Virus record (IMG/VR): IMGVR_UViG_3300031658_000095
Coordinates: 1 to 26,816 of that record
Strand: one strand, 5' to 3'
From: a virus
Length of the DNA stretch: 26,816 nucleotides
A program made the position numbers and the translations under genes. The notes under the pieces are model-generated. The model saw only the letters and a list, made by a program, of their open reading frames with translations, was not told where the DNA came from and ran no database searches. Within the stretch, counting starts at the first letter, position 1. Every line of letters starts with the position of its first letter. Below are positions 1 through 26,382 of this stretch, one piece after another.

Positions 1-132
1 TATCTGTTTCCTGTATTAACAAAAGAATCTGTTTTTGATAAAGATTGGGCGTATATACTAGGTCACATTACTCAGTTTTTTATTGTGCCAACCATTGTCC
101 TACAGATTCTTGCTGTAATTAAATCGAAATAG
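1..132 (+). CDS. C-terminal end of a probable membrane protein (5' cut by window)
   Basis: An open frame runs from base 1 to a TAG at 130-132 and encodes 43 residues with no start in view, so the gene begins outside the window. The end is hydrophobic (GHITQFFIVPTIVLQILAVI) and is followed by a short basic tail (KSK). This looks like a transmembrane helix with a cytoplasmic C-terminus. I do not recognise the family. Its stop lies two bases before the next ATG, so it belongs to the same rightward operon as the packaging genes. A small phage membrane protein is plausible, but a holin role is not supported because a better holin lies at 21031. Confidence 0.5.
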   Translation, partial: YLFPVLTKESVFDKDWAYILGHITQFFIVPTIVLQILAVIKSK

Positions 133-4878: not shown

Positions 4879-5883
4879 ATGAATGAAGAAATAGAATTAG
4901 ACGACATTAATTTAGAATTAACGGCTGCGTGGGATGCCGTAAATGGAGCCGAAGATTCAAATGAGTCAGATGAGGGCATCTTGTACGATACCGCTAATGA
5001 ATCTGTTGATGCTATTGAAAATAAAAATGAATTTACCGAAGAAATTAAAACTGAAAATCCTGAATTAATTAGTCAAGAAACACAAGCTGATGATCCATCT
5101 CCTGTAGGATTATCTCCAGAAGCAAGAGAAGAATGGTCTAATACACCTCCTGCTATAAAAGAACATCTTGCTCGTAATGAGCAGCGCATGGAAGGAATGG
5201 CTCAAAAATTTGGGGCTAATTCTAAACGTGCTGAAGCTATGGATAGATCGCTTGCGCCCTATGCACAGTTATTTGCCATAAACGGTGGAGGCGACCAAGT
5301 TATTCCAGCTTTGTTGCAAACTGCATCTCAGCTTCAAATGGGTTCTGGGCCTCAAAAAGCTCAGGCAGTTGCTCAAATTATTAAACAATATGGTGTAGAC
5401 ATACGGACTTTAGACTCATTGTTGGTTGGCGAAGCTCCCAGCCCAGAGGTAAAACGGCAATCAGAAGTTCAACACGCTGTTCAACAAGCTGTAGCGCCTT
5501 ATCAACAACACATGCAGCAGTTCCAACAACAGCAGCAGCAACAACAGCAAAATGCTCAAAATCAAATTGCTGGAGAAGTAAACAATTTTGGCGCTCAGAA
5601 TGAGTTTTACAACGATGTTTGTTCTCAGATGGCTGATTTAATGGATATGGCCGCTAACCGCAACCAAGAGATGTCAATGGAGGAAGCCTATTATGCGGCT
5701 TGTGTTTCTCATCCTCAGATTTCAAAGATAATCCACTCTAGGCAGTCGCAGCAATCTGTGCAAAAGAAGCAAAGAGCCGCTTCTAGCGTCCACGGAAACT
5801 CAGGTGGATCTATGTCTAGCAATGCGCCTGACAGCGTTGAAGCGGCCTTAAACTCTGCATGGGATAATGCTGGACGAATGTAG
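4879..5883 (+). CDS. Probable capsid scaffolding protein
   Basis: 334 residues directly upstream of the capsid gene, the usual place for a scaffold. Residues 1-70 are strongly acidic. The middle (GLSPEAREEWSNTPPAIKEH, then LARNEQRMEG) matches a pattern I associate with podovirus scaffolds: Leu-Pro/Ser, a Trp-x-x-x-PP helix, then a Gln/Arg-rich helix. Residues near 210-230 form a poly-Gln run encoded by CAA/CAG repeats around 5523-5551, likely a flexible hinge or coiled coil. The C-terminal part is Ser-rich and ends in a small helix (SVEAALNSAWDNAGRM), where scaffolds usually touch the capsid protein. No protease motif is visible, so a non-cleaving scaffold is inferred. The identification rests on position and composition. 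Confidence 0.75.
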   Translation: MNEEIELDDINLELTAAWDAVNGAEDSNESDEGILYDTANESVDAIENKNEFTEEIKTENPELISQETQADDPSPVGLSPEAREEWSNTPPAIKEHLARNEQRMEGMAQKFGANSKRAEAMDRSLAPYAQLFAINGGGDQVIPALLQTASQLQMGSGPQKAQAVAQIIKQYGVDIRTLDSLLVGEAPSPEVKRQSEVQHAVQQAVAPYQQHMQQFQQQQQQQQQNAQNQIAGEVNNFGAQNEFYNDVCSQMADLMDMAANRNQEMSMEEAYYAACVSHPQISKIIHSRQSQQSVQKKQRAASSVHGNSGGSMSSNAPDSVEAALNSAWDNAGRM

Positions 5884-5899
5884 TAAATAAATGTATATT
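5871..5899 (+). promoter_or_regulatory. Candidate sigma70-like promoter for the capsid gene
   Basis: TGGACG at 5871-5876 matches four of six bases of the -35 consensus. TATATT at 5894-5899 matches five of six of the -10, with the standard 17-base spacing. The -35 lies inside the end of the scaffold gene and a transcript would start near 5906, inside the structured leader. A dedicated capsid promoter makes sense for the most abundant protein. Matches this good occur by chance in AT-rich DNA, so this is tentative. Confidence 0.35.
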
Positions 5900-5940
5900 C
5901 TCTGTACAGCTCCAATTATGTAAGGATCTGTGTAGAGAAT
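5897..5940 (+). promoter_or_regulatory. Imperfect inverted repeat in the capsid leader
   Basis: The arms are ATTCTCT-GT-ACAG (5897-5909) and CTGT-GT-AGAGAAT (5928-5940). They pair as a 7-bp stem, a 2x2 internal loop and a 4-bp stem, with an 18-base loop. No U-run follows, so it does not look like a terminator. It lies just downstream of the candidate promoter and could be an RNA stability element, a protein-binding hairpin or an operator. Confidence 0.5.
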
Positions 5941-5952
5941 AAGAAGCAAAAG

Positions 5953-6025
5953 GCCATTCAAGCGGTCTTACAACTGAAGGGCTATTCAAGCGGCACCTTC
6001 TAAGTATCTAGCCATTCAAGCGGCA
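5953..6025 (+). repeat. Three direct repeats GC(C/T)ATTCAAGCGG in the capsid leader
   Basis: Copies lie at 5953-5965, 5981-5993 and 6011-6023. They are identical over 13 bases except for one C/T change, and copies two and three extend to 15 bases (ending CA). Start-to-start distances are 28 and 30 bases, close to three helical turns. No ORF with a start codon covers them. They sit between the inverted repeat and the capsid ribosome-binding site (AGGAG at about 6062-6066). The function is unknown; a repeated protein-binding site in DNA or mRNA is an inference. Confidence 0.6.
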
Positions 6026-6074
6026 GGATAAAGTGTAATTAACCTCGTTACCTTTTAACTTAGGAGATAGCCTC

Positions 6075-7049
6075 ATGGCAAATCCAAACATTAGCGACAT
6101 TCTCGCTACCACAATCGAGTCGCGCAGTAAGACTATTGCCGACAACGTAACCAAAAACAATGCTGTTTTGATGCGTCTGTCCCAAAAAGGAAAAATTAAA
6201 ACTTTTTCTGGTGGTTCACAGATTCTTCAAGAACTGTCTTTTGCTGAAAACAGCAATGGCGGCTGGTATTCTGGTTACGACATTTTGCCTGTTGGCGTAA
6301 GTGACGTTATCAGTGCTGCTGCCTTTCAGATCAAACAGGCTGCTGTTCCAGTAGTTATTTCTGGACTCGAAATGCTGCAAAACTCTGGCCGAGAGAAAAT
6401 GATCGACTTGCTAGACGCTCGTTTGTCAGTTGCAGAGTCAACTCTGTCTAACTTGATTTCTATTGGTTTGTACTCTAACGGTACTGCTGCTGGCGGAAAG
6501 CAAATTGATGGACTTGATCTTGCTGTATCTGAAACGCCTCTTACTGGCGTTTACGGTGGAATTGATCGTGCTACTGCTAGTAATGCGTTCTGGCGCAACC
6601 AGATCGTATCTTCTGGTGCAGTTCCTGACCCTCTTACAATTCAAGGATTTATGAATGATCTTTGGGTGAAGCAGGTTCGTGGCACTGATCGTCCTGATTT
6701 AATTATGACGGACAACTCTGTGTGGAGTACCTACATGGAATCATTGCAAGCGCAACAGCGTTTTACCTCTCCTGAAACTGGTAGCCTTGGATTTGCAAGT
6801 ATCAAGTTTATGGATTCTGACGTGGTTCTTGATGGTGGTATCGGTGATGCTTGCCCAGCAGGAACAGCGTTCTTCTTGAACAGCGATTACATCCATTATC
6901 GTCCTCATTCTGGACGTAACATGGTTCCACTGTCACCTAACCGTCGATATGCGACTAACCAAGACGCAGAAGTGCAAATACTTGCATGGGCTGGTAACTT
7001 GACTTGTAGCGGAGCGCAGTTCCAAGGCCGTCTTGATTTAACGGCATAA
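6075..7049 (+). CDS. Major capsid protein (HK97-type fold, inferred)
   Basis: 324 residues following the scaffold gene, led by a good ribosome-binding site (TAGGAGATAG). The sequence has features I associate with a widespread podovirus/siphovirus capsid family. An N-terminal helix (ISDILATTIESRSKTIADNV) precedes NNAVLMRLSQKGKIKTFSGG, followed by the long spine-helix region with DLLDARLSVAESTLSNL-type heptads and a loop rich in Gly/Ala. There is a conserved-looking PDLIMTDNSVWSTYMESLQ segment and a C-terminal domain ending GAQFQGRLDLTA. The length suits an HK97 fold without large insertions. No protease or cleavable delta domain is apparent, consistent with the separate scaffold. It is followed at once by strong hairpins, which would cap a highly expressed transcript. 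Identity is fairly sure from context and the family-like pattern. Confidence 0.88.
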   Translation: MANPNISDILATTIESRSKTIADNVTKNNAVLMRLSQKGKIKTFSGGSQILQELSFAENSNGGWYSGYDILPVGVSDVISAAAFQIKQAAVPVVISGLEMLQNSGREKMIDLLDARLSVAESTLSNLISIGLYSNGTAAGGKQIDGLDLAVSETPLTGVYGGIDRATASNAFWRNQIVSSGAVPDPLTIQGFMNDLWVKQVRGTDRPDLIMTDNSVWSTYMESLQAQQRFTSPETGSLGFASIKFMDSDVVLDGGIGDACPAGTAFFLNSDYIHYRPHSGRNMVPLSPNRRYATNQDAEVQILAWAGNLTCSGAQFQGRLDLTA

Positions 7050-7060
7050 GAAGTTCGCCC

Positions 7061-7092
7061 GAACGGGAGGGGGCATTTGCCTTTTCCCGTTC
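7061..7092 (+). terminator. Long hairpin after the capsid gene
   Basis: GAACGGGA (7061-7068) pairs with TCCCGTTC (7085-7092). The inner GGG-GGC pairs with GCC-TTT through three G-U wobbles around the loop ATTT (7075-7078). That gives a 14-bp stem with a 4-base loop, followed by TTTA. It starts 11 bases after the capsid stop. It is a probable terminator or 3' mRNA-stabilising hairpin, and the first of two in tandem. Confidence 0.72.
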
Positions 7093-7095
7093 TTT

Positions 7096-7117
7096 AGGGT
7101 GGAAACGCCCTCTTTTT
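7096..7117 (+). terminator. Rho-independent terminator, GAAA tetraloop
   Basis: AGGGTG (7096-7101), loop GAAA (7102-7105), CGCCCT (7106-7111), then CTTTTT (7112-7117). This is a 6-bp stem with one G-U pair closed by a stable GNRA loop and followed by a U-tract, the classical intrinsic terminator layout. The AGGAG ribosome-binding site of the next gene starts immediately after the U-tract, so any downstream expression depends on read-through or processing. Confidence 0.8.
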
Positions 7118-7128
7118 AGGAGAAATAT

Positions 7129-7641
7129 ATGTCATATAACGCAAGCCCAACATTTTTTGACGATTTAACTTCTGCTGGCTCTAGGCAATCAGAAACGGGT
7201 ATTACACAAGTAGCTTGGGAGACAGGCGGCAATGCAGGAGCTTCTAACGCTCACGGTCTTGGCATTAATATAGGCGGTGGTGAATTGCCAGCCATTCCTG
7301 CAATACCTGCAAACGGTATTGGTATGAATTGGACTTTAACTGATCAATTTTCAGTTGCGCGAACTCCTCAAGTATCACAAGTAATTGGCGGAGCAGGTTT
7401 TGTGCCAAGAAGCGGAAATGTAGCAACAACATGGGACACTACTCAAGTATTGTATACGCCTAATGGTGCAGCAGGTTCTGGTGGAATTTCTGGCAATGGC
7501 AGCGCTGTTTCACCATTAATGTCTATTAATACTGCTACTAACCAAGTTGATGTAGACAATGCCCCTGTTTACAATGCTTATCCGACAATTGATGGGCAAG
7601 CACATGTGGCATCACTTGATCCAGGATGGGTTTCAGTATAA
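7129..7641 (+). CDS. Gly-rich structural-type protein, paralog A (possible capsid decoration)
   Basis: 170 residues, ATG preceded by TTTTTAGGAGAAATAT. It is rich in Gly, Ala, Asn, Ser and Thr with no Cys, giving a beta-rich look. It is clearly related to the next gene: both have GIGINI-type GG-x-LP-x-I (here LGINIGGGELPAI), an IG-x-NWTL-x-x-Q segment, the shared GNVATTWDTTQ block near residues 96-106, and a C-terminal L-x-x-GWV end. The position after the major capsid gene and two terminators suits a minor head protein such as a decoration or head-fibre subunit, but I recognise no named family. The role is inferred from location only. Confidence 0.7.
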   Translation: MSYNASPTFFDDLTSAGSRQSETGITQVAWETGGNAGASNAHGLGINIGGGELPAIPAIPANGIGMNWTLTDQFSVARTPQVSQVIGGAGFVPRSGNVATTWDTTQVLYTPNGAAGSGGISGNGSAVSPLMSINTATNQVDVDNAPVYNAYPTIDGQAHVASLDPGWVSV

Positions 7642-7652
7642 GGAAATAGCTT

Positions 7653-8168
7653 ATGCCTAACGCAACATACTTCTACTCATCAGCAATACAAGGCGGGGAT
7701 ACCGCAAGGGCTAAGACGCCTAATGCCGAATGGTATAACGGTGCAAATCCTAATGCTGGAAACAACTCTGGCATTGGGATTAACATAAATGGCGGTTCTT
7801 TGCCTGAAATTACAGGTGAAAATAGCATCGGCTACAACTGGACGCTTTTGCAGCAAATGCCTAATATTTTTAATCCTTCGGTTATGCAAAGTAGAACCCC
7901 GCAGGGAGTATGTCCTATTGGCTGCTCTGCTAATGTTATTCGCATTGGAAATGTAGCAACAACATGGGACACTACTCAGCCCCTTTATACAGAATCTGGC
8001 GCAGCAAGTTCCGGTGGTTCAATTCCTCAACTTATGCAGTTTGGCCCTATTAGTGCTGGAACCAATCCTGATAATGTTAATGGCGCTCCTGTTGAAGGTG
8101 CGGCTCCTGTTTTGGTTGGGAGTGCAACTTTAGCTACATTGAGTGCTGGCTGGGTAGCCACACCTTAA
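7653..8168 (+). CDS. Gly-rich structural-type protein, paralog B (possible capsid decoration)
   Basis: 171 residues, ATG preceded by AAGGAAATAGCTT. It is the tandem paralog of the upstream gene: it shares GIGININGGSLPEI, IGYNWTLLQQ, GNVATTWDTTQ near residues 99-109, GAASSGG and a LATLSAGWV end. It differs in having a Cys pair (GVCPIGCSAN) near residues 86-90, absent from paralog A, which could form a disulfide or metal site. The two proteins are diverged over most of their length, yet 32 bases (7947-7978) are identical to 7414-7445. Head decoration or a paired structural component is inferred. No homologous family is recognised. Confidence 0.7.
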   Translation: MPNATYFYSSAIQGGDTARAKTPNAEWYNGANPNAGNNSGIGININGGSLPEITGENSIGYNWTLLQQMPNIFNPSVMQSRTPQGVCPIGCSANVIRIGNVATTWDTTQPLYTESGAASSGGSIPQLMQFGPISAGTNPDNVNGAPVEGAAPVLVGSATLATLSAGWVATP

Positions 8169-16361: not shown

Positions 16362-19185
16362 ATCACTCGCAACTATGACCGAAGAAGAGGCGAAAGCTAG
16401 ATTAAGGCTTATAGAGTTAGATAACCTTAATGAAGCACCTTCTTATGCAATGAGATCAAGCGGTAATAACCCTATTGCTGAACCTGTTGATGAAACTGTT
16501 GTTGAAACTGTTGTTGAAGAGCCTGTTAACCCTAACGAGTATGCCGTTGGCGAAGTTCCTGTTACTGCTGGCTTGGTGAATACGTTGCGAGGTCTTGGCA
16601 GGGGCGCAATAGATAGCACAATAGATTTACCGAACCTTTTATCAGGTATGGCTGGGCCAGCGGTTACATGGGCCGGAGAAACATTATATGACGCACCAAA
16701 TGACGCTGCAAGTTTAGCCAATATTACTAATCCGTTTGGAACAAATGTTTTGCCTATGACTTTAATGGCATTAGGCGATAAATTATCAAATGTTGGTGAA
16801 AGAACAAAACCATCTGAAGCTCCATTTATAGACAAACCTTTAGATTTTATTTCTAAAGAAGACCCAAATATACCTAAAGATTCATACTGGAATGCGCCCA
16901 GAAAAGGAGCAGAATGGGGCGTTGGAGGACTTTCTAACGCTTTAAGAAAAACTGCAAGAGTGTTGCCTGACATTGCAATGGGACTTGGAGCAACAGCAGG
17001 GGCCGCAATAGACACTGGATTAAGAAAAAATACAGAAATTGATACTCCGTTTGGCGAAATTGTAGGAGGTATAGGTGGTTTATTGGCTACAATAAAAGGC
17101 AGACCTAGAGCAATAGACGAAAGTGGAAAAGAAATTCCGCAAGCAGTATTGCGAGCATTAAAATACATGGATCAGAATTTTGTAGATACAAGTAACATGA
17201 GTAAAATAGATGCTAACAAAGCACAAGCAGCTGCAAGAGAGCAAAATTTTGCAGATGTTTCTTTGTCATTATCAGAAGGAGAAAAAGGAACGTTAGCAGA
17301 TATTTTAAGAACTAAAGAAATTTCTAATATTGAATCTAGTTTAGCTGGAAATGCCAGTACAAGACAAAACTTAAGAGAAAAAAATCAAGAGCAATTAGAT
17401 CAAGTCGTGGAAGAAGTGCGAAACAAAAGTCAATCAACAGGAGTGCCTGAGGCTTCTATTGCTTCTGCTGAAAGAGAAGTTATTGGCCTTACTCAAGCCA
17501 TTGAAGCTAATGCAGTGCAAAAACAAATAGACATAGCTAACAGTAGAACACAAGAATTTGATGACATTTCTGCTTTACAGGCATCTTCTAATCAAAGAGC
17601 AACAGCGGCAGCAAATGAAAGAGAAGCGGCTAGAATAGCTTCAAGAGATAGTGAAGCATTATTAAAAACAGATTCTAGGGTAGATGAAACTGCTGTTTCT
17701 GTTCAAGATGAAATACTGGCGCAACAAGAAGCCTATAGAGCTAATATAGAAACTCCTGCGTATGCGCGATTTAAAAATGATTCTTCTAATATTCCTATGG
17801 AAACTATTGGAAGCGCAATAAACCGTTTTAGAAACCGTTTAGAAGAAACTGAAATAGCATATTTTGATCGTAAATTTAAATCTGACATAAATTTAATTGA
17901 TTTAAATGCAGAAACAATAAGTCCTGACTCATTTATTACTTATTTGTCTGAGTTAAGAAAAGCAAGAAAAAACGCCAGCTCTGGAGATAACGCGGCAAGT
18001 TCTCCTACGTTAAGGCGAATGGATGAATTAATTGAAGAAATTGAATTGTCTGTAACATCTAATAGCCCTCTTTACCGAGAAGCAAAAGCAACAACAACAG
18101 AATTTTACAGAAGATTTGGAGACACAACTTTACAAAAAGCTCTTGCAGGAGAACCTGAATATTTTACTAGAAATATGGGCGGTCTTGCAGATGAATCTGG
18201 AGCAGTGGTTCCTCGGATTTTAAAAAACACAGGAATATCAACTACACCTCAGATGGTATTTGAGCAGTTGTCTAGTGTCGCAAGAAAAGAAGGCATAGAT
18301 AATAAATTTTTAGTTAAGTATGGAGCTGCTATTGCAGACCTTTCTGAAGAACAGCAAGCACTTTTTAGAAATGCTGCTAATGACGCTGAAAATCTTAAAC
18401 GATTAGAAACAGATGTGCCTGTAAAATTAAAAGCTGAAGATAACATTGCAACACAATTAGGAAAAGACGAAACAAAATTAACAAAAGCACTAGAAGATGA
18501 AGCCCAAATAGTTGCTACAGAAACAAAAGGATTAACAAATTCTGTTCAAGCTAGTTTGCTAGGAAGATATGTTGACAAGCCAGAGGTATTGTTGCGTGAA
18601 TTAACGAGTGCAGACAATGTTACGGGTAACATTAGAAATTTAAAAGAGCTTAACAAAAGAATGATCGAACAAAATCAAGGAGCATCTTTTAGAGCCGATG
18701 TTACTCGGTATGCTCAAGAAGCATTGTTAAAAAACGACAAACAAGTTAGACGCATTTTAGAAGAATCCAATATTCTTACAAAAACAGAATTAGACAATAT
18801 TGAAAGGTCTACTAATAAGTTAAAAAGCATAGAGCTTAGAAAAAATGCTGTTAGCTTTCACCTTACTCCAGACAAGAAAGGGGAAAGTTGGTGGAATGAT
18901 CTTGTTAAGACTGGCGTAGTTATTACTGCCGTAAAAGCAAGTCCTGGAGGCAACGAATTAATTATTGCTGGAGCCGTGAGAAGGGCGGTAAACAGAATTT
19001 TTTCAAAAAATCCAGATGGAGCAGAAATAGCAGCATTAGAAGAGTTTTTTTTAAACCCTCAGTTATATATTGACGCAATTAGAAGAGCTAGAAATGCTGA
19101 AGAGATAACCACAGCATTTATATCAAGAATTAACGCTATGGCAAGCACTGCAAGAGCGCAAGAACGCTATCAACAAAACAACTAA
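16354..19185 (+). CDS. Large internal virion / ejection protein (943 aa)
   Basis: 943 residues, the largest protein in the window, ATG 8 bases inside the previous gene. The N-terminus has a short Val/Glu repeat (VDETVVETVVEEPV). Residues about 70-245 contain several amphipathic Gly/Ala-rich hydrophobic segments (for example near 190-220 and 230-245) that could enter a membrane. Residues about 300-830 are mainly charged helix and coiled coil. A second hydrophobic stretch (TGVVITAVKASPGGNELIIA) lies near residues 850-875. This mix of membrane-active segments and long helices fits ejection proteins of the T7 gp16 or P22 gp16 type, which carry DNA across the periplasm, but I see no transglycosylase domain. 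The role is inferred from size, location and composition. Confidence 0.7.
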   Translation: MIESLATMTEEEAKARLRLIELDNLNEAPSYAMRSSGNNPIAEPVDETVVETVVEEPVNPNEYAVGEVPVTAGLVNTLRGLGRGAIDSTIDLPNLLSGMAGPAVTWAGETLYDAPNDAASLANITNPFGTNVLPMTLMALGDKLSNVGERTKPSEAPFIDKPLDFISKEDPNIPKDSYWNAPRKGAEWGVGGLSNALRKTARVLPDIAMGLGATAGAAIDTGLRKNTEIDTPFGEIVGGIGGLLATIKGRPRAIDESGKEIPQAVLRALKYMDQNFVDTSNMSKIDANKAQAAAREQNFADVSLSLSEGEKGTLADILRTKEISNIESSLAGNASTRQNLREKNQEQLDQVVEEVRNKSQSTGVPEASIASAEREVIGLTQAIEANAVQKQIDIANSRTQEFDDISALQASSNQRATAAANEREAARIASRDSEALLKTDSRVDETAVSVQDEILAQQEAYRANIETPAYARFKNDSSNIPMETIGSAINRFRNRLEETEIAYFDRKFKSDINLIDLNAETISPDSFITYLSELRKARKNASSGDNAASSPTLRRMDELIEEIELSVTSNSPLYREAKATTTEFYRRFGDTTLQKALAGEPEYFTRNMGGLADESGAVVPRILKNTGISTTPQMVFEQLSSVARKEGIDNKFLVKYGAAIADLSEEQQALFRNAANDAENLKRLETDVPVKLKAEDNIATQLGKDETKLTKALEDEAQIVATETKGLTNSVQASLLGRYVDKPEVLLRELTSADNVTGNIRNLKELNKRMIEQNQGASFRADVTRYAQEALLKNDKQVRRILEESNILTKTELDNIERSTNKLKSIELRKNAVSFHLTPDKKGESWWNDLVKTGVVITAVKASPGGNELIIAGAVRRAVNRIFSKNPDGAEIAALEEFFLNPQLYIDAIRRARNAEEITTAFISRINAMASTARAQERYQQNN

Positions 19186-22721: not shown

Positions 22722-23062
22722 GCTTATCTCCTCATTTTAAACGCCCTGAGTTTGCTTGTAAGTGTGAATGTGGTTTTGATACAGTTGACACTGTATTGCT
22801 AGAAGCCTTGGAAGCTATCAGAGGCCACTTTGAAGCCCCGGTAGTGATAACGTCAGGGTGTAGATGTATTGCTCACAATCATGCAGTGGGAGGCACTGAA
22901 AAGTCTCAGCATTTAAAGGGTAGGGCGGCAGACATTCAAGTAAAAGGAATTGAGCCAGAAAGAATTGCTAATTATGCAGAAGATTTGGGAATGTCAGTGG
23001 GCAGGTACAGCACCTTCACCCACATCGACTCCCGTAGTGGTGTTCCCGCTAAGTGGGGCTAA
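22718..23062 (+). CDS. Endolysin-type peptidase, M15 family (TTG start)
   Basis: 114 residues. The start is TTG at 22718, supported by GGAG at 22706-22709 eight bases upstream; no ATG lies near the domain's beginning and the codons from TTG encode the expected N-terminal SPHFKRPEFACKC. It is a zinc peptidase that cuts peptidoglycan cross-links. Its motif H65-LKG-RA-AD (HxxGxAxD: H65 and D72) plus H102 in FTHIDSR form the metal site of M15 D-Ala-D-Ala-type peptidases. There is no signal peptide or wall-binding domain, so export must depend on the holin. The Cys pairs (CKCEC) at residues 14-18 are unusual but recur in this family. The TAA stop overlaps the stop of the opposing gene. Confidence 0.9.
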   Translation: MSLSPHFKRPEFACKCECGFDTVDTVLLEALEAIRGHFEAPVVITSGCRCIAHNHAVGGTEKSQHLKGRAADIQVKGIEPERIANYAEDLGMSVGRYSTFTHIDSRSGVPAKWG

Positions 23063-23069
23063 TCCCCGC
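23053..23069. terminator. Weak hairpin where the two transcription units meet
   Basis: GTGGGG (23053-23058), loop CTAAT (23059-23063), CCCCGC (23064-23069), a 6-bp stem with one G-U pair that spans the two convergent stop codons. No U-run follows on either strand, so it is not a typical Rho-independent terminator. It may slow colliding polymerases or may be chance. Confidence 0.3.
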
Positions 23070-23868
23070 AAAAGCAGGGAATTGATTCGTCTTCACTAAA
23101 GTTAAAAAGATTAGGCTGATCTGTGGCGATTACTTTCATGTCAGAATAGCTAATCTGATCTTTCCTAAACCGTCCTCCAATCTTTTTTTCTTGAGCTGCC
23201 CACCAGTCTGATAGATCAGGATTTTCGCGCATAATAGAGGCTCTAATTTTTCGTCCTTTCAAAAAACACAAATCACAATTCGAGGCATTAGATGTGCCGT
23301 CTTGCATCATGGGAAGATTTAAGCCAAAGGGTTGAGATTCCCAAAAATCCCTAATTGTCTCTATACTTACACCATCGTCTGCAAGAGGAACAATATAATC
23401 ATCTTTGATTTTCTGTTTTGCTACCCTGCGGGGTTCGTCTGCCCGAATGCCAACTGCTGTAATGAACTCTTTATGCCCTATTGATGTCATGTATTTCTGA
23501 ATCGGTATGATCTTCAATTCCGTTGTGCAGAAACGCATTCTCGGGTTTGGCAGATAGTTTTTTTCCGTAGTCAGCAGATCAAACGGCTCGCCTTTTCTGC
23601 TGGCGGCTTTATAGTCCACAATTCGGGGTGGCAATTTGCGGCTGATAAATTCCAGCCATACAATATCCACACCCCAGTTGTCAGAGCAAGCCTGAACAAA
23701 ATCTAACGTCTGGGGCATTTCTTTACCTGTATTTGCGAAGGTAACTACCGCTTCGTCAGGGAGCTTTCCGCCATTGGCCTCCAGCACCTTCCAAAGCATA
23801 TACGCAGATGTTCGCCCACCGCTAAACGATATAGCGGTAGGCTCAGTGATTAAATAAGGATTTGTCAT
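23059..23868 (-). CDS. PP-loop ATPase, PAPS-reductase-like, with extra Cys pairs
   Basis: 269 residues, ATG preceded by AGGAATAAAAATAA. PP-loop SFSGGRTS at residues 14-21 would bind ATP, as in the adenylating enzymes of the PAPS reductase / N-type ATPase superfamily. TFANTGKE (43-50) and GIRADEPRR (140-148, GxRxxExxR) are typical of the reductase-like phage subgroup related in fold to DndC. Cysteines at C114, C198 and C201 (NCDLCFLKG) and C265 and C267 (CFCGD) suggest an Fe-S or zinc site. The substrate is unknown; sulfur transfer to nucleic acid or sulfate reduction are possible, and no dnd-like partners are seen. It is the last gene of the leftward block. Confidence 0.82.
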   Translation of the reverse strand: MTNPYLITEPTAISFSGGRTSAYMLWKVLEANGGKLPDEAVVTFANTGKEMPQTLDFVQACSDNWGVDIVWLEFISRKLPPRIVDYKAASRKGEPFDLLTTEKNYLPNPRMRFCTTELKIIPIQKYMTSIGHKEFITAVGIRADEPRRVAKQKIKDDYIVPLADDGVSIETIRDFWESQPFGLNLPMMQDGTSNASNCDLCFLKGRKIRASIMRENPDLSDWWAAQEKKIGGRFRKDQISYSDMKVIATDQPNLFNFSEDESIPCFCGD

Positions 23869-24102: not shown

Positions 24103-24264
24103 CTATAGTTGATGTGTGGGAAAAGGACATGGATAGCCAGCCTGGACAACGATGATCTCTCCAGTCTTGCTGTTCTTACAGTATGCAACCTCTTGCGCGT
24201 GACACATAGAAGCCGTAGAAATGAATGTAATCAGTATAGCAAGTAACGCGTTTTGTTTACTCAT
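24103..24264 (-). CDS. 53-residue secreted Cys-containing peptide
   Basis: ATG at 24264-24262, TAG at 24105-24103, 53 codons on the minus strand. The first 23 residues form a classical signal peptide: basic start (MSKQN), hydrophobic core (ALLAILITFISTASM) and a signal-peptidase-type site CHA before QE. The mature part of 30 residues is QEVAYCKNSKTGEIIVVQAG then YPCPFPTHQL, with two Cys that could form one disulfide. A further Cys sits in the signal peptide near the cleavage site, but the sequence there (ASMC) is a poor lipobox. The ATG overlaps the HNH stop (ATGA) and has GCAGGATTCCC upstream. The family is unknown; the signal peptide makes a real gene likely. Confidence 0.7.
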   Translation of the reverse strand: MSKQNALLAILITFISTASMCHAQEVAYCKNSKTGEIIVVQAGYPCPFPTHQL

Positions 24265-24863
24265 GGGAATCCTGCTCCAAATGATTCGTGGTTAATAGTA
24301 AATTCATCTTTTTCACGCTGTCGTTCATTCATTTCATTAAGGGCATCAGCAATGGCTTCTAGGGCTTCAATAGCCCTATACACCAACACCTCCTCATCTT
24401 TTGTATCCATTAATTCCTTCTCCGTTTCTATGTGCCATTGATGATGACACTTTGAGCATAGCCACCTAACTACCATCGGCAATGAGTAATTATCATGGTG
24501 GCCGTGGATTCTTCCGCCACATCCACATTCACTGCATTCGTGGGATTTTTTAAGCCTCCCGTCACGAACTGCATTTCCAATTATTGTCGATGCTCCTTTT
24601 TTAATCGCATTTTTTGAAGCCCATTTGTTTTTACTCCTTTTTTGAGAGTCCTTGCCAGCCTCTGTTTTTGCGTAAGCTTCTCTTGCGGCAACTCTATGCG
24701 GCAATGCGTTTCTTTTTTTTTCGTACACAGGGTCAGTGCCTCTATCCCTGCTATCACGTTTTGCGCATTCCTTGCACTTCCCAAGCAAGCCATCTGCCAT
24801 CTGTCTATTTTTATAGAACTCTGAACGGGGCTTTTCATCTCCACATTTAAAACAAGTTTTCAT
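24261..24863 (-). CDS. HNH endonuclease with N-terminal zinc ribbon and C-terminal helix
   Basis: 200 residues, ATG preceded by ACAGGAGTAGCTA. An N-terminal Cys ribbon (C4, C7 and C30, C33: CFKCG...CKEC) is followed by a basic helical linker. The HNH core is C110-x-x-C113, GGRIHGHHDNYSLPMVVRWL (with H122/H123), then C136-SKC-HHQW-H144. This spacing (C-x2-C, HH, then CSKCHHQWH) matches the small phage HNH nucleases that cut DNA with one metal. A charged C-terminal extension (ALEAIADALNEMNERQREKD) of about 50 residues follows the nuclease, longer than most. Such proteins can be homing, packaging or replication-associated nucleases. The gene sits between the SSB-like gene and the secreted peptide, in the early block, and not next to terminase. 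Confidence 0.82.
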   Translation of the reverse strand: MKTCFKCGDEKPRSEFYKNRQMADGLLGKCKECAKRDSRDRGTDPVYEKKRNALPHRVAAREAYAKTEAGKDSQKRSKNKWASKNAIKKGASTIIGNAVRDGRLKKSHECSECGCGGRIHGHHDNYSLPMVVRWLCSKCHHQWHIETEKELMDTKDEEVLVYRAIEALEAIADALNEMNERQREKDEFTINHESFGAGFP

Positions 24864-25577: not shown

Positions 25578-25603
25578 AAAAAAATCATTATTGTCACAAC
25601 AAT
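25578..25603 (-). terminator. Weak terminator-like hairpin after the annealing-protein gene
   Basis: On the minus strand ATTGT-TGTG-ACAAT (25603 to 25590) is a 5-bp stem overlapping the stop region. After five unpaired bases it is followed by a run of seven Ts (25584 to 25578). The stem is short and AT-rich, so termination would be inefficient. The ribosome-binding site of the next gene follows directly. Confidence 0.3.
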
Positions 25604-26382
25604 CACAACGATACATAGCCATCACGTGAGAATTCGTCATGCGCGATCCCAGCTTGCTCCGTTAAGTTTTTCATTTGAAGATGCTCAATTTTAGTCATAC
25701 CAGCATTTACTAGGTCTATGTTCTCAGGATCAAGCTCATCATAGATTTCGGCAATGGAATCACTAGAGTGATCGGCTATAGCCTCCTGTAAAGCCGCCAC
25801 AGTCGTTTTAAGCTCAGAGTTGGCAGATTGTACCAGTTCTCTTACTTTGCTCTTGAGGGCCGTTATCTGGCCTTTGGGGGCAGAGTTGAATAAATCGTCC
25901 ATAATATGCTGCTGATTAGCTTCAGTTAGTGCTTTATTAAACCGTTTGATTGCCCAGCCGTCACCGTTTGCTACCATCATATTGAATGATGCCAATTGCT
26001 CAGGCGTGTAAGTCTCTCCAACTGGAGCCGATTCTCCTGCAAAAATGTAATGACCTAGACCAAAGCCAACGGCACAGCATTTTACTAAGCAACGCATCCT
26101 GGCAGAGTTAATGTCAAAGGAATTGGGGTTTGATATGGCTTTATTGCGAAAATCTAGTACAGGAAGCCACATAATAGCTTCCTGATCGTCAATAATGACT
26201 GTCACTCTGACCTCCATCGAACCGTCAGCATAGTGTACGTCAGGTTCTAGGCGGTAATTGGCTAATGGGTAATTATCTTTAACCATAGCCCATGCCCAAC
26301 TCCAACTTAAATAGTCAAAGCCACCTTTCTTATCAACGTGTTTTGAACAGTCGATTGCGCTTAATGTTGCCCAGACACTCAT
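25603..26382 (-). CDS. Single-strand annealing protein, DUF1071 (Sak3-type)
   Basis: 259 residues. The N-terminus carries the DUF1071 pattern: L-x-AI-x-CSKHVDKKGGFDYLSWSWAW at residues 7-32 (K-x-GG-x-YLSW-x-WAW), then a beta region ending MWLPVLDFRNKAI. The conserved DINSARMRCLVKC helix (residues 90-102) and GFGLGHYIFAGE (106-117) complete the domain. Members promote annealing of complementary ssDNA for recombination-dependent replication. The C-terminal half is helical and variable (residues about 125-259), probably a partner or ring interface. The start ATG at 26382 has a weak GCGAG site. It is paired with an SSB-like gene two genes downstream, the usual recombinase/SSB partnership. Confidence 0.85.
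   Translation of the reverse strand: MSVWATLSAIDCSKHVDKKGGFDYLSWSWAWAMVKDNYPLANYRLEPDVHYADGSMEVRVTVIIDDQEAIMWLPVLDFRNKAISNPNSFDINSARMRCLVKCCAVGFGLGHYIFAGESAPVGETYTPEQLASFNMMVANGDGWAIKRFNKALTEANQQHIMDDLFNSAPKGQITALKSKVRELVQSANSELKTTVAALQEAIADHSSDSIAEIYDELDPENIDLVNAGMTKIEHLQMKNLTEQAGIAHDEFSRDGYVSL

Follow-up and report, generated by a model that had tools for sequence, protein, structure and literature searches.

In MS2-type RNA phages, the coat-protein operator is a short, conserved-loop hairpin close to the gene start, while in HK022 the put RNA, which is present at both early operons, consists of tandem hairpins right after the promoter. In phage T4, the ribosome site is sequestered in an RNA helix in the leaders of genes e, soc, 49 and I-TevI, and genes 32 and 43 have autogenous leaders through which gp32 and gp43 regulate the translation of their own mRNAs (PMC3014915).

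We analyzed the window, a 26,816-nucleotide stretch of viral DNA, and compared the leader of its major capsid gene with these systems. As in MS2-type operators, short hairpins with a conserved loop lie near a phage gene start; however, the present phage is a dsDNA tailed phage, the hairpin occurs in three copies with another loop and a separate anti-Shine-Dalgarno (SD) strand, and binding is putative. The leader shares with HK022 put the tandem hairpins directly after a promoter but differs in that its hairpins are restricted to the capsid leader and that a leader strand pairs with the SD region. The likeness to the T4 e/soc/49/I-TevI leaders is that the SD region is paired within the mRNA of the phage gene, whereas their pairing strand belongs to longer early transcripts extending into the gene and the present one lies 3' of a predicted promoter and competes with a conserved-loop hairpin. 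Like the ribosomal-protein and T4 gp32/gp43 autogenous leaders, it would work as a structured, protein-read leader controlling translation of one gene, although it has hairpins in tandem that vary among close relatives, and its ligand is putative. Sequestered ribosome sites and autogenous leaders are already known; this leader is absent from Rfam (release 15 gave no family above the gathering threshold for it or for 30 related loci), and we found no description of it in the papers searched, full texts outside subscription journals.

The major capsid gene and its leader

The capsid protein is 68% identical to the annotated capsid of BUCT555 and 63% identical to that of Mx8, and its family takes in the isolated phages BUCT555, Mx8 and Mx9. 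Only five relatives were found in the genome collection, all of them MAG contigs. The protein encoded upstream of the leader is probably a scaffolding protein. Downstream of the capsid gene, the adjacent genes at 7129-7641 and 7653-8168 have repeated DNA in common (about 71 bp at 79%) and look like paralogues from their sequences; neither has a PHROG match. The minus strand of the window carries genes for a PAPS-reductase-like protein (23059-23868), an endonuclease (24261-24863, PHROG 2340) and a Sak-type single-strand annealing protein (25603-26382).

The gap between the upstream ORF stop (5883) and the capsid ATG (6075) spans 5884-6074. Its 191 bases make it, as the preliminary description had it, the longest gap of the window; the next has 79 bases. 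A long leader is usual before this capsid gene (median 154 bases, at least 100 in 86%). The features are as follows.

5871-5899, + strand: promoter-like pair, TGGACG (5871-5876), 17 bases, TATATT (5894-5899); from sequence
5896-5941, + strand: 5'-proximal inverted repeat or hairpin H0, arms 5896-5913 and 5924-5941; from folding and inverted-repeat search
5950-5969, + strand: hairpin H1, loop AUUCAAGC at 5956-5963; from folding and covariation, 30.3 bits, E 2.4e-6
5976-6000, + strand: hairpin H2, loop AUUCAAGC at 5984-5991; from folding and covariation
5997-6005, + strand: anti-SD strand CUUCUAAGU, 89% complementary to 6058-6066; from swap tests
6005-6030, + strand: hairpin H3, loop AUUCAAGC at 6014-6021; from folding and covariation, 32.0 bits, E 8.1e-7
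6058-6066, + strand: SD region ACUUAGGAG, the 3' strand of the clamp helix; from sequence, inverted-repeat search and swap tests
6070-6079, + strand: small predicted hairpin GCC-UCAU-GGC with the start codon inside; from folding only
6075-7049, + strand: major capsid gene, 324 aa; PHROG 9953 major head protein, E 6e-115
7061-7111, + strand: two weak terminator-like hairpins 3' of the capsid gene; 3 overlapping matches, 1.5 expected

The promoter-like pair, which had been pointed out before, is present but taken alone stands at chance level (2 found, 2.5 expected). In relatives, however, such a pair recurs: a sigma-70-like pair (TTG[AC]NN-15..19-TANNNT) occurs at the same place before the capsid gene in 63 of 113 leaders, compared with 6.3 expected from shuffles and 5 in a control search inside the capsid gene. 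The pair predicts a transcript start at about 5906, and the terminator-like hairpins weakly suggest a one-gene capsid transcript.

The inverted repeat in the leader had been given as 11 bp with an 18-base loop; the repeat is real, but its size was understated, since the arms are 18 bases long and 83% complementary, with 10 bases between them. H0 lacks the conserved loop and is maintained by compensation in L004, L006 and L007. This imperfect repeat overlaps the -10 box and could therefore function both in the DNA, as an operator, and in the RNA, as a hairpin.

Tandem hairpins with a constant loop

The three 13-mers previously noted at 28- and 30-base spacing are found on the + strand at 5953 (GCCATTCAAGCGG), 5981 (GCTATTCAAGCGG) and 6011 (GCCATTCAAGCGG). 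As had been stated, no ORF explains them, in that no + strand ORF of at least 50 aa covers them, and the search of the whole record that had been proposed gave no further match at 0-1 mismatch; at up to 2 mismatches there were 7 matches (1.05 expected; 0 of 100 shuffles). What had been missed is that each 13-mer forms the top of an RNA hairpin with the 8-base loop AUUCAAGC when the leader is folded. The leader fold has a stability z of -2.85 and was equaled by 1 of 200 shuffles, the ViennaRNA energies being those of a model that does not include a structured 8-base loop. The 13-mers, judged from the letters, are real repeats, but as RNA hairpin tops and not as a DNA repeat.

Related leaders, taken from IMG/VR, provided 37 hairpins from 13 capsid leaders for comparison, and the leaders whose hairpins bear the loop A-N-U-C-A-M-G-C are referred to as class A. 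Loop positions 1, 3, 4 and 5 are constant in 37 of 37 hairpins, G7 and C8 are present in 36, and position 2 varies; the closing pair is C-G in 29 and U-G in 7. All 37 loops contain UCA, a U-turn-like U-N-R step. The loop sits on very different stems, such as CAGAC-ACUCACGC-GUCUG and AUAGUC-AAUCACGC-GACUAU in L015. T-loop and CsrA motifs were considered by eye and dropped, the former because loop position 2 varies and the latter because the loops lack GGA.

Alignment of the leaders, proposed earlier as a check for covariation, bore out the hairpins: around the constant loop, the stems gave a covariation score of 0.668, compared with 0.264 for shuffled and at most 0.273 for slid controls, and both sides had changed in 63 cells. 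RNAalifold recovered H2 and H3 unprompted from the class-A alignment. In the inner five stem pairs, G.U pairs outnumber A.C mismatches by 21 to 5, the signature expected of a + strand RNA; the p-value of 0.001 for this excess is a guide only, as the hairpins are related to one another. Spacing between hairpins varies among relatives from about 26 to 47 bases.

The hairpins are tied to this one leader. At E < 0.01, their covariance model matched only in the capsid leader, in 12 class-A records, the window among them (two records are of 37-40 kb and one is of 35 kb); it gave no real match at 25 other loci and no hairpin elsewhere in the near-complete relative records, so that presence at other operons of the same phage, as in put, was not found. 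A pattern scan for two tandem copies, run over all of IMG/VR (2.9 million viral contigs), returned 56 stretches, among which every one with both copies in stems of at least 3 bp was a capsid leader; stem-bearing tandem copies outside this capsid family were absent from the scan. L420 is the window's phage again (99.99% identity), and L419, an 85%-identical relative of the window, carries the same three hairpins. On the capsid tree, class A requires five changes, at least 3 of them forced by strong branches, and class-A hairpins stand at no fewer than 3 separate places. A further small hairpin, perfect or nearly so (UGUUCCAUGUGGAACA), lies between hairpin 3 and the SD in L008, L012, L015, L018 and L009.

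A leader strand that can pair with the ribosome site

A second inverted repeat, 5997-6005 with 6058-6066, had also been overlooked and joins the leader to the SD region. In each leader, a strand complementary to its own SD region lies 3' of hairpin 2 and covers some or all of that hairpin's 3' arm; in the window, CUUC is common to the lower 3' arm of H2 and the anti-SD strand. Because of this overlap, the clamp helix and hairpin 2 compete. The paired strands are CUUCUAAGU with ACUUAGGAG in the window, GGCUAUCUCC with GGAGAUAGCC in L012, UCUUCUAUUC with GAAUAGGAGA in L014, and GCGAUUCUCUUGUCAG with CUGAUAGGAGGAUCGC in L010.

We assessed this pairing by an alignment-free swap test, in which the best duplex of a leader with its own ribosome-site region was compared with those formed with the regions of other phages, foreign pairings being optimized equally. 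Own pairing was in the best 5% for 33 of 105 leaders. For 89 non-redundant leaders of the capsid family, z was -12.7 (0 of 20,000 permutations) and the double-centered advantage of own pairing was -3.8 kcal/mol, while a control stretch inside the capsid gene gave z 0.8. With five class-A clade representatives, own pairing ranked 1 of 120 permutations. Compared with shuffles, leader duplexes averaged z -1.40; the mean over 141 other gene starts, drawn from five phages, was -0.12. A leader strand complementary to the SD is thus kept by compensation, as a sequestering strand would be. In the window alone, the clamp of 9 bp is modest (duplex z -0.61), so the case for it rests on the family; the minimum-energy fold of the window leaves it unpaired. 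Since RNAalifold did not report the clamp on the class-A alignment, it rests on the swap tests.

In L013, an endonuclease-like ORF (2658-2978; PHROG 2340, E 1e-21) separates the three hairpins from the capsid ribosome site. The two strands of the clamp are still present there, about 400 bases apart, and close spacing is therefore not essential in that phage.

The clamp and hairpin 2 are mutually exclusive folds of similar energy in the nearest-neighbor model, to which all these values belong: the difference (clamp minus hairpin 2) is +2.4 kcal/mol in the window and, for 11 of 12 leaders, falls in the range -6.9 to +4.4 kcal/mol. The remaining leader, L007, gives +7.4, with a poorly placed helix and 3 clamp pairs in forced register.

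A proposed translational switch, its alternatives and its variation among relatives

We consider it fairly likely that synthesis of the major capsid protein is regulated in cis, at translation, by the leader, which would combine tandem putative docking hairpins with a switchable clamp on the ribosome site. The leader would be transcribed from the local promoter, and the three hairpins would form while the RNA is made, and a trans-acting factor may dock on them. An RNA-binding protein is the likeliest kind of factor; no candidate ligand was found. Alternatively, the SD region could pair with the 3' arm of hairpin 2 together with the next bases, so that the site would be open with hairpin 2 formed and closed with the clamp helix, the two alternating. 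Because the two compete at similar predicted energy, a factor holding or releasing hairpin 2 would switch capsid translation; as it would stabilize hairpin 2, binding is expected to open the site, and co-transcriptional folding would likewise favor the open state first. The preliminary description had offered two readings, of which the repeated RNA element controlling capsid translation is well supported by the covarying hairpins and the covarying predicted ribosome-site pairing, whereas the reading as a DNA site for a protein, repeated at helical spacing, is not supported, given the variable spacing, the compensating stems and the G.U excess.

Relatives keep this layout of hairpins and a ribosome-site-pairing strand while the RNA letters change. 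The preliminary description would have been weakened by relatives with the same capsid gene but neither the repeats nor the inverted repeat, and here the outcome is mixed: about a dozen lineages keep the repeats, whereas L009, whose capsid protein is 98% identical to that of L010, lacks this loop and yet retains tandem hairpins and the ribosome-site pairing. The L009 and L011 records are about 94% identical across structural genes, and the L010 leader equals that of L011; nevertheless, the L009 leader (G002 30335-30508) has no detectable similarity to the L011 leader (G003 17738-17901) over the stretch between the upstream gene and the bases immediately preceding the SD region, and was either replaced or evolved extremely fast. 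L009 has four hairpins with YUCGCR loops (by eye), and its clamp strand is still present (AUCCUCC..GUCAG). In the 90 leaders outside class A, hairpins made of an outer stem, a CCA/A 3x1 internal loop and a short inner stem occur in 35, often two or three in tandem (L308, L302, L028, L053 and about 30 others), compared with 7 for the next commonest 3x1 type and 1.9 for CCA/A in shuffled leaders; by their sequence, they are probably an equivalent putative docking site in other lineages.

A special case of the translational switch, in which an excess of either the capsid protein or the probable scaffolding protein encoded upstream would bind the hairpins, seems to us rather unlikely. It would suit an element tied to the capsid gene only and has parallels in T4 gp32 and gp43 (PMC3014915), but the nearly identical capsids of L009 and L010 face different loops, and class-A hairpins are scattered over the capsid tree. 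The former point weakens this case and is not fatal, since YUCGCR and ANUCAMGC share U-C..G-C and one protein might read both.

An alternative is that the hairpins shield the 5' end of a strongly expressed capsid mRNA, or have it processed, through RNase E or RNase III, the ribosome-site pairing being secondary. Their place near the predicted 5' end, the resemblance of the capsid gene to its own transcription unit, and L013, where they have remained beside the promoter with an ORF intervening before the capsid gene, agree with this. Plain stability, however, needs no octamer loop constant across 37 hairpins and leaves the ribosome-site covariation uncalled for, and we find it unlikely. An antiterminator RNA acting in cis on RNA polymerase, like put of HK022, would explain tandem hairpins just after a promoter at the head of the late structural genes and fits terminator-like hairpins beyond the capsid gene; it is improbable given that the hairpins precede the capsid gene only, at no other operon of near-complete relatives, and that the covarying SD pairing is left unexplained. 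A target of antisense RNA, for example in superinfection immunity, is very improbable: the U-turn-like UCA suits loop-loop pairing, and immunity types would be consistent with near-identical phages having dissimilar leaders, but five genomes held no convincing trans cluster of loop-complementary sites, only the leader itself and a few short sites elsewhere. A repeated DNA operator for a dimeric regulator, to which the near-identical 13-mers at 28/30 spacing and the repeat over the -10 box might point, is the most improbable and is disfavored by the varying spacing, the compensating stems and the tolerance of G.U over A.C.

Returning to the translational switch, a broader and tentative proposal is that this clade of tailed phages has a modular capsid RNA switch with a conserved plan (promoter, tandem recognition hairpins and ribosome-site-clamping strand), in which the recognition hairpins might be swapped as cassettes between near-identical phages, driven by a need to match or evade a trans-acting host or phage factor. 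Little is known of the post-transcriptional means by which tailed phages adjust when, and in what amount, their most abundant protein is made. The RNA element described here belongs with a single capsid family that has isolated phages among its members, and clear mutants can be made. The plan is kept while the recognition hairpins change, and in one case, that of phages about 94% identical over the structural genes they share, the change is complete; this may give a handle on the putative factor.
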